In this document: positions 7,732-10,218 of the stretch, one piece after another
Position numbering within the stretch: the stretch's first letter is position 1
Layout of the letters: every line of letters begins with the position of its first letter
NCBI GenBank assembly: GCA_016742275.1
Contig: JACVCD010000003.1
Span: forward strand, 1 to 64,000
Origin: Gemmatimonadaceae bacterium
GTDB taxonomy: Bacteria > Gemmatimonadota > Gemmatimonadetes > Gemmatimonadales > Gemmatimonadaceae
Direction: 5' to 3'
DNA length: 64,000 nucleotides
Notes under the pieces: model-generated
Told to the model about the DNA's origin: nothing
Database searches by the model: none
Seen by the model: only the letters and a program-made list of their open reading frames with translations
Translations under genes and position numbers: made by a program

Positions 7732-8691
7732 TCAGCTCGGCACGTCGTTCACATTGATGCGATCGTAACACGTCGGGCAGACGCCGTGACTGAACTGCGA
7801 ACCGGTATGAGTCACGATGTAGGCTTCCACGTGCTGCCAGAAGTCGTCATCGTCGCGGACCTTTCGGCAATACGAGCAAATGGGAATGATCTCGCGAAGT
7901 GTCTTCACTTCGGCGAGTGCGCGTTGCAGGTCCGCGATCAACTCCTCGCGCTCGGACTCGGCGACTTTGGCGTCGGTGATGTCGCGCGCGACAGAGTAGA
8001 TCACGCCCTGATCGACATCGGCGGCGGCATTCCACCGAAACCAGCGGTAGCTGCCGTCCTTGCAGCGATAGCGGTTTTCGAAGCCGAGTGCCTGGCCTCC
8101 TCCACGTACCGCACGATTCTGATTGAGCGTGCGCTCGCGGTCGTCAGGGTGCACGAAGTCGATAAAGGGCCGCGCCAATAGTTCGCCGAGTGACCAGCCA
8201 AGGGTGCGCTCCCAGGCGGGGCTCAGGCGACGGAAGTAGCCGGAAAAATCGAGGAAGCAGAGCAGGTCGAGTGTGACCGCGAAGAACCGCGCATCAGGGT
8301 CGCTGGCCAGCTGGAGTGCGTGGGCGTGACGACGTGCCAGGTCCAGGGTGGCCAGCAAGGTGGCGTCGGTAACGGTGGCCGGCAGCAAGGCCGCCGGTAG
8401 CGCATCGACCAGCGTGTTTGGTGCCGGGTAATCGTCATCGACCAGAAACACCGTGGCCACGCCGCCAAGGCGCCGAAGCTGACGGGCGAGGTGCTCGGTG
8501 CTCATGGAGCCGGGCAGGTCTGGCTGCACGAGCGCCAGATCGGGGTGCACATGGGCGCACAGGTCGAGCGCTTCTTCGGCCGATGGACAGGGCCCGAGCA
8601 CGTGATAGCCGCCCTCGCGCAGGACGTTCACCAGTGCCGCACGACGTTCGTCGGCGGTGTGGACCAGAAGGACGCTGATCGGATGACTCAT
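7732..8691 (-). CDS. Degenerate receiver-PAS signalling protein
   Basis: A 319-residue cytoplasmic protein. Residues 5-125 have the layout of a response-regulator receiver, but the phospho-acceptor position holds Gln56 (LALVQPDLPG), the acidic pair after strand one is replaced (VLLVHTADE), and the conserved Lys is absent (AALLPATVTD). It is thus probably not phosphorylated. Residues 130-250 form a PAS domain with PAC motif (YRCKDGSYRWFRWNA). A C-terminal Cys module (ICSYCRKVRDDDDFW, then HGVCPTC) is typical of PAS-type sensors and may bind metal. It lies divergently from ndh and could sense a ligand or redox state. Output partner unknown. Confidence 0.82.
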   Translation of the reverse strand: MSHPISVLLVHTADERRAALVNVLREGGYHVLGPCPSAEEALDLCAHVHPDLALVQPDLPGSMSTEHLARQLRRLGGVATVFLVDDDYPAPNTLVDALPAALLPATVTDATLLATLDLARRHAHALQLASDPDARFFAVTLDLLCFLDFSGYFRRLSPAWERTLGWSLGELLARPFIDFVHPDDRERTLNQNRAVRGGGQALGFENRYRCKDGSYRWFRWNAAADVDQGVIYSVARDITDAKVAESEREELIADLQRALAEVKTLREIIPICSYCRKVRDDDDFWQHVEAYIVTHTGSQFSHGVCPTCYDRINVNDVPS

Positions 8692-8752: not shown

Positions 8753-8770
8753 TTGTGAAACTTTTCACAA
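8753..8770. promoter_or_regulatory. Rex- or CRP-type operator upstream of ndh
   Basis: The 18-base sequence TTGTGAAACTTTTCACAA is a perfect inverted repeat of 7-base arms with a 4-base centre. It matches the published consensus for the NADH-sensing repressor Rex (TTGTGAA-N4-TTCACAA). It equally contains TGTGA-N6-TCACA, the CRP/Fnr-family pattern. The site starts 65 bases before the ndh ATG, in the divergent gap with the receiver-PAS gene. Rex control of ndh is well known in other phyla, which favours that reading. Confidence 0.7.
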
Positions 8771-8817
8771 GCAACGGGACTAGTAAGGGAACAGCCCTGA
8801 ACTCCGGTGGAGAAGCC

Positions 8818-10218
8818 ATGACCGCGCCTCGCGAGACCGAAACCCTCGAACGCCCACTGGGCGAGTTCGTAAGTACCGCTCCCAAGCTCACCGTGACCGG
8901 CAGTCACACGGCCGATCCGCGTCCCCATGTGGTAATTATTGGTGGCGGATTTGGCGGTATGTCGGCGGCCAGGGCGCTGGCCAAGTCGCCGGTGCGGATC
9001 ACCCTCGTCGATCGCACCAATCATCATCTGTTTCAGCCGCTGTTGTATCAGGTGGCTACGGCCGTGCTCAATCCGGCCGACATCAGCGTGCCAATCCGGT
9101 GGCTGCTGCGAAAGCAGAGCAACGTCACCGTGATCATGGCTGATGTGGATGCCATAGATCCGAATGCCCGTACGGTGACGCTTGATGCCGGTACGGTATC
9201 ACTCACGTTCGATTATCTCGTTCTGGCCACGGGTGCGCGGCACGCGTATTTCGGTCATCCCGAATGGGAAACCAATGCGCCGGGGCTCAAGAGTCTCGAG
9301 GACGCACTTGAAATGCGTCGCCGTTTTCTGCTGACTTTCGAAGCGGCCGAACGATCGAGCGCGGCGGACGAACGCGAGGCGTTGTTGACATTCGTGATTG
9401 TCGGTGGTGGGCCGACGGGTGTCGAACTTGCCGGCATGATTCCCGAAGTCACAAGACATGCATTGTGCGGCGAATTCCGTCGCATTGATCCATCCAAGGC
9501 ACGTGTGCTGTTGCTCGAGGGTGGTCCACGCATTCTCCCGGCGTTTCCTGAGTCGTTATCGGCGCGCGCGCAGCGCGATCTCGAGTCGCTTGGTGTGACG
9601 GTGCGGACCAACTGCATTGTGACGGAAGTCGATGCCGATGGTGTGGTGGCAAACGGTGAGCGCATTGCGGCACACACGGTGTTCTGGGGCGCGGGCAATC
9701 AGGCGTCGCCGCTCGGCCGGCAGTTGGGGGCGGAGGTTGACCGCGCCGGTCGAGTGCAGGTCAAGGCGGACCTTAGCGTGCCCGGACATCAGAACGTCTT
9801 TGTAGTCGGTGACGTGGCAGCGGTGAAGACCGCCAACGGTGCACCGGTACCGGCGGTTGCGCCGGCCGCGAATCAGATGGGTGTGCACGCCGGTCGCATG
9901 ATTGCTGGCGATTTACGCGGGCGCGAGCGCACATCGTTTCGCTATGTGAACAAGGGTGACTTGGCGACGATCGGTCGTCATCGCGCGGTTGCTGTGCTGG
10001 CCGGCCAGAAGCTGACCGGGACGTTCGCGTGGCTCACCTGGTTGTTCGTGCACATTCTCTATTTGGTCGGATTGCGCAATCGTCTCACGGTGCTCGTGCA
10101 GTGGGCCTTTCAGTATTTCACCTTCCAGCGTGGCGTGCGTCTCATCACCGGAGACACGGTGCATCGTCTGCTCAAGGCCAGTCGACTCGCACACGAGAAG
10201 CGTCGCGTATCGGTGTAA
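8818..10218 (+). CDS. ndh: Type II NADH dehydrogenase (NADH:quinone oxidoreductase)
   Basis: A 466-residue monotopic flavoenzyme that passes electrons from NADH to membrane quinone without pumping protons. The FAD-binding motif is VVIIGGGFGG (about residues 38-47) and the NADH-binding motif VIVGGGPTGVELAG (about 193-206). NVFVVGDVAA near the C-terminus is the second FAD contact. The C-terminal region contains hydrophobic amphipathic helices (FAWLTWLFVHILYLVG) for membrane attachment. ATG at 8818 is preceded by GGTGGAGAAGCC, a good ribosome binding site. A Rex/CRP-type operator lies upstream, so expression probably follows redox state. Confidence 0.93.
   Translation: MTAPRETETLERPLGEFVSTAPKLTVTGSHTADPRPHVVIIGGGFGGMSAARALAKSPVRITLVDRTNHHLFQPLLYQVATAVLNPADISVPIRWLLRKQSNVTVIMADVDAIDPNARTVTLDAGTVSLTFDYLVLATGARHAYFGHPEWETNAPGLKSLEDALEMRRRFLLTFEAAERSSAADEREALLTFVIVGGGPTGVELAGMIPEVTRHALCGEFRRIDPSKARVLLLEGGPRILPAFPESLSARAQRDLESLGVTVRTNCIVTEVDADGVVANGERIAAHTVFWGAGNQASPLGRQLGAEVDRAGRVQVKADLSVPGHQNVFVVGDVAAVKTANGAPVPAVAPAANQMGVHAGRMIAGDLRGRERTSFRYVNKGDLATIGRHRAVAVLAGQKLTGTFAWLTWLFVHILYLVGLRNRLTVLVQWAFQYFTFQRGVRLITGDTVHRLLKASRLAHEKRRVSV

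Follow-up and report, generated by a model that had tools for sequence, protein, structure and literature searches.

A predicted Rex operator upstream of ndh and a candidate respiratory redox regulon in Gemmatimonadota

Introduction

The closest described counterpart of the regulon considered here is that of Streptomyces avermitilis. In the parts of the report on that organism used here, Rex represses atpIBEFHAGDC, cydA1B1CD, nuoA1-N1, rex-hemAC1DB, hppA, and ndh2, its operators follow the pattern TTGTGAANNNNTTCACAA, and the presence of NADH makes it bind less strongly (PMC5355995). The original prediction for the present locus had appealed to Rex control of ndh in other phyla, and the place of ndh2 among these targets bears this out. 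Both systems combine the same operator consensus with four kinds of target, namely rex, complex I, F-type ATP synthase, and type II NADH dehydrogenase. As far as those parts of the report allow the comparison, the system described here differs in belonging to another phylum, in having sites before two atp operons (atpZ and atpA), and in a putative cupredoxin target, and its regulation is predicted. Moreover, S. avermitilis Rex acts on cydA1B1CD, whereas no cyd operon was seen beside the sites of our genome with at most one mismatch. The Rex operator of Staphylococcus aureus, TTGTGAAW4TTCACAA, has arms identical to those found here, but its regulon, in the sections of the study drawn on, consists of anaerobically induced genes, while the targets here belong to respiration (PMC2883068).

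We found no relevant description of Rex in Gemmatimonas, Gemmatimonadota, or Gemmatimonadetes in the open-access literature. A second system to be compared is CRP, whose core is TGTGA-N6-TCACA. Its half-sites are identical to those of the operator described below, and a CRP-like protein is encoded in the genome. The assignment to Rex instead draws on the genomic setting, on co-occurrence across the phylogeny, and on the full arms. Here, we analyze a palindrome upstream of ndh in a stretch of 64,000 nucleotides from a Gemmatimonadaceae bacterium (the window), together with its genome of origin and 150 genomes of the phylum.

Results

A perfect Rex-type palindrome precedes ndh

The putative Rex operator (ROP) occupies positions 8753–8770 of the window, without strand, and reads TTGTGAAACTTTTCACAA. 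It is a perfect palindrome with 7-base arms, TTGTGAA and TTCACAA, which are fully complementary around the 4-base centre ACTT in the window sequence, and it matches all 14 specified positions of TTGTGAANNNNTTCACAA. The operator thus lies upstream of a respiratory gene: the ATG of ndh at 8818 is 65 bases from its start and 47 bases from its end, exactly the letters and the place of the original prediction. On the other side, a divergent PAS-domain gene (minus strand) starts at 8691, 61 bases away.

Given the base composition of the window (about 38.5% A+T), 4e-5 exact matches to TTGTGAANNNNTTCACAA are expected per window and about 0.003 (0.0028) per genome, and three are observed in the genome. 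Reversed control patterns yielded no match, neither that of TTGTGA-N6-TCACAA in the source genome nor that of TTGTGAANNNNTTCACAA in any of the 150 genomes of the phylum. A shorter reading of the motif with two mismatches allowed occurs in the window no more often than chance predicts, so that the evidence there is carried by the exact match. A scan for sigma-70-like promoters near the operator returned none, leaving the predicted repression of ndh by promoter overlap unsupported.

The downstream gene (8818–10218, plus strand) encodes 466 amino acids and would be the Rex-repressed target. Its product matches Pfam Pyr_redox_2 (5.7e-53) and NDH2_C (35.6 bits, over the cut-off of 27.7), the domain pair of a type II NADH dehydrogenase, and ndh is therefore a fair gene name; no NCBIfam model scored over its own cut-off. 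The longest open reading frame (ORF), from GTG 8722, would span the operator. ATG 8818 is more likely to be the start, being preceded by GGTGGAG (8805–8811, plus strand), which reads as a possible ribosome binding site.

The genome encodes a single canonical Rex

The original prediction called for a rex or crp homologue, and the genome (4.57 Mb, 33 contigs, 99.6% complete) encodes both a Rex and a CRP-like protein. A profile search of the genome located exactly one Rex, with PF06971 (2.4e-19) at C24:45925–46068. In the protein, the winged-helix domain PF06971 (5.3e-19) is joined to the Rossmann domain PF02629 (4.2e-21), both over cut-off and in single copy. Several NCBIfam Rex models also exceed their cut-offs (best NF003995, 1.9e-78), and among solved structures its nearest matches are without exception Rex proteins, one of them named AT-rich DNA-binding protein. 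The recognition helix of the helix-turn-helix shares QVRKDLS with 1xcb, and the glycine motif GAGKIGAAL can be read in the translation. In the part of the Thermotoga maritima Rex–DNA structure report used here, Lys49, Arg60, and Gly61 contact DNA (PMC8836258); a hand count, with an offset of four taken from the matched ranges, places K45, R56, and G57 at these positions. NAD(H) binding and NADH-driven release from DNA are predicted for this protein.

Rex sites precede rex and co-occur with Rex across the phylum

The rex gene of the source genome is itself preceded by the same palindrome, TTGTGAAATACTTCACAA, at a distance of 20 bases from where the Rex query begins. We examined 30 rex loci, our own and 29 others, the 30 that scored best among the 136 genomes carrying a Rex domain. 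In every one, a search of the 400 bases upstream finds a site with no more than one mismatch, 7 to 92 bases ahead of the Rex query start; 24 of the 30 sites are exact. These sites most likely indicate the predicted binding sequence of Rex in this phylum, independently of the site before ndh.

Among the 150 genomes of the phylum, 136 have a Rex domain and 124 have exact sites. Sites occur where Rex occurs: an exact site is found in 122 of the 136 Rex-bearing genomes and in 2 of the other 14 (Fisher p 4e-9, an overstated value, since it ignores kinship among genomes). The 14 Rex-bearing genomes that lack an exact site count against the Rex reading. A whole-Rex search of the 14 Rex-less genomes returned one partial Rex in G142 (49% identity, residues 90–204) and near-threshold matches in G031 and G045. 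G142 has no exact site, and counting it as Rex-bearing changes the figures to 122 of 137 and 2 of 13. The two site-bearing exceptions are G031, with one exact site and no clear rex in profile or protein search, and the congener G055, with two exact sites and five with at most one mismatch, including the ndh site. Neither profile nor whole-protein search of the G055 draft (about 90 contigs) found rex, which reflects either a gap in the draft assembly or recent rex loss.

Exact palindromes are unusually frequent in genus g47 of family f5 (e.g. G017, G064, G059, and G138), with 5 to 17 per genome as opposed to 1 to 4 in most others. The Rex regulon of this genus is apparently expanded.

The sites of the source genome outline a candidate respiratory regulon

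The search for further copies that the original prediction had proposed yielded three exact sites in the genome and seven when up to one mismatch to TTGTGAANNNNTTCACAA is allowed, against 0.15 expected for the latter. Six of the seven precede ndh, rex, nuoA, atpZ, atpA, and a cupredoxin gene, while one lies within an ORF. The site TTGTGAATTCTTTCACGA stands before nuoA, the first gene of the complex I operon; TTGCGAAAAATTTCACAA before atpZ (PF09527), ahead of further genes including atpE; and TTGTGAAAATTATCACAA before atpA, the first gene of atpAGDC. In these operons atpE, atpG, atpD, atpC, and the later nuo genes were named by eye from their translations. With zero to two mismatches, 13 places are found, compared to 3.5 expected by composition and 3 in the reversed control; the six with two mismatches were left out of the interpretation of the regulon. 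Two of these places, C27:56004 (one mismatch) and C8:1272 (two mismatches), fall within ORFs; we treated them as likely chance matches.

The 18-mers of the nuoA, atpZ, and atpA type recur letter for letter in five of five congeners. Within the loci returned by tblastn, the gene context was confirmed for atpA in G019, for atpZ in G073, and for nuoA in G055. G134, from another genus, has an atpZ site with a different centre, again with tblastn context.

A cupredoxin gene is a recurrent neighbor of Rex sites

The site TTGTGAATAACTTCACAA (C18:78675; L003:1501–1518) is a perfect Rex site 74 bases 5′ of a gene (1593–2087 of the same locus) for a cupredoxin of the plastocyanin family with 164 residues. 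It recurs within the genus, in G019, G039, G055, G073, and G078. At 30 exact-site loci of the same order (L107–L136, one site per genome), rex adjoins the site in 16, a cupredoxin relative of 39–48% identity in eight, and neither in six, three of which are short loci. The cupredoxin thus seems to be the most stable Rex target after rex itself. Auracyanin is a name for such blue copper carriers; in a small literature search for Rex together with such carriers, the word auracyanin appeared in none of the matches listed.

The ndh site is conserved in close relatives

At ndh, the site is restricted to a lineage. Within the family, NDH gave 63 matches in 62 of 81 genomes, and the best 30 of these loci were examined. 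Six of the 30 have an exact site within 400 bases, and they are the six that rank highest in protein identity, our own included (71 to 100%). The seventh-closest, in G073 (70%), has no site, and the ndh relatives of the congeners G019, G073, and G111 all lack it, which counts against the assignment. Six of 80 NDH loci of other genomes carry a site, among them four of the six loci with at least 72% NDH identity. The other two, L080 and L095 (Verrucomicrobia-type, 55–57% NDH identity), each have a perfect palindrome before ndh at 2894–2911. All six genomes possess a Rex domain, and in the four from Gemmatimonadota rex is likewise preceded by an exact site; in the L080 and L095 genomes no close site precedes rex (best 4 and 5 mismatches). 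With 6 of 30 family loci and 6 of 80 elsewhere, Rex control of ndh would be a lineage trait rather than a phylum-wide one.

Ten Gemmatimonadota ndh loci with a site, of which L020 and L170 are alike at this stretch and probably one locus counted twice, have identical arms throughout (10 of 10), and their 40-base flanks average 0.34 pairwise identity. Conserved arms amid diverged flanks form a footprint at ndh in close relatives. A tile control (28 of 197 tiles) mostly recounts rex sites and does not serve as an independent control.

Dual control, CRP/Fnr, and chance

The intergenic position raises the question of whether one operator serves both ndh and the divergent gene, as the original prediction had suggested for a "receiver-PAS" gene. 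This gene (7732–8691, minus strand) does encode a PAS domain (PAS_3, 2.7e-16), but its receiver domain is weak (Response_reg, 0.002, below the Pfam cut-off). Although the operator falls in the gap between these divergent genes, with 61 bases to the PAS start codon and 47 to that of ndh, no PAS gene relative was found beside ndh at any of 80 NDH loci of other genomes or at 29 other loci of the family, where the same search did recover the gene at our own locus, and in close relatives the operator stays with ndh. Dual control is therefore not supported and we regard it as unlikely, while a passive effect of the operator on its PAS neighbor is possible in this genome.

Binding of the palindrome by a CRP/Fnr-family regulator is a real rival, because the genome encodes a CRP-like protein (C7:260804–261535; PF00027, 2.5e-23) with RETVSR in its recognition helix. 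The helix reads SRETVSR, which we take to be close to the recognition helix of E. coli CRP; the best NCBIfam match is CRP (7.8e-33), yet far below cut-off. The operator also contains the TGTGA-N6-TCACA core, as had been pointed out from the start. However, the whole genome holds only nine TGTGA-N6-TCACA sites, four of which are the Rex-type sites before ndh, the cupredoxin gene, rex, and atpA, while the other five comprise four inside ORFs and one between ORFs read as ftsA and ftsZ. Moreover, the operator has full Rex arms, and a site precedes rex itself at all 30 rex loci. The distribution of the sites does not follow the CRP-like protein either. Five genomes in which no Rex was found keep an orthologue of 48–82% identity; exact sites are absent from G080, G122, and G050, and the exceptions are G031 with one and G055 with two. 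Taken together, recognition by a CRP/Fnr-type protein is highly improbable.

The site between the ftsA- and ftsZ-like ORFs, TGTGAGCCGCCTCACA (L241:1501–1516; C25:8427 in the genome), is the only intergenic TGTGA-N6-TCACA site that is not Rex-type. The genome further encodes, on C8, a 634-residue ORF (L105:1699–3603) with an N-terminal cyclic-nucleotide-binding domain, identified by profile search, and an aspartase/fumarase-like enzyme part, named by eye.

A palindrome arising by chance, or kept for another reason such as coding for an ndh N-terminus from GTG 8722, can be dismissed almost entirely: the longest ndh ORF does include the operator, but such palindromes are expected only 4e-5 times per window, the distance from site to projected ndh start in relatives (47, 52, 52, 53, 38, and 141 bases) follows no fixed codon frame, and the flanks are unconserved.

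Discussion

The presence of rex, the conserved sites before it, the coherent regulon, the co-occurrence of site and Rex, and the footprint at ndh strongly support the Rex reading. The palindrome before ndh is thus very probably an operator of Rex, an NAD(H)-sensing winged-helix repressor. The core of the original prediction, a Rex operator before ndh, stands on this evidence, whereas the added control of the receiver-PAS gene is not supported.

Our observations comprise the palindrome, the gene for Rex, their co-occurrence, and the conservation of the site; binding, repression, and a response to NADH are inferred. At low NADH, a Rex dimer would occupy the palindrome in front of ndh and keep the gene from being transcribed. 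A rise in the NADH/NAD+ ratio, for example when oxygen is short, would lead to NADH binding and release of Rex, and ndh would be expressed, its NDH-2 product re-oxidizing NADH. Other predicted targets of this Rex are rex itself, the genes of complex I (nuo), both ATP synthase operons, and the gene for the plastocyanin-like copper protein.

Rex logic is already known from other bacteria, and sequence evidence supports well that the same logic would operate in another phylum. We further consider it reasonably likely that Gemmatimonadota Rex is a phylum-wide, autoregulated switch of aerobic respiration, in which the plastocyanin-like carrier is the most conserved target after rex and ndh was added in one lineage.

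These findings provide a concrete, predicted redox regulon for Gemmatimonadota, a phylum common in soil and water whose genetics is little developed. They suggest that the respiration-type Rex logic of Streptomyces (ndh, nuo, atp, and rex) may hold in a distant phylum, and they suggest that Rex recurrently targets a blue copper carrier. If true, Rex control of the cupredoxin would extend the Rex regulon by a new branch.
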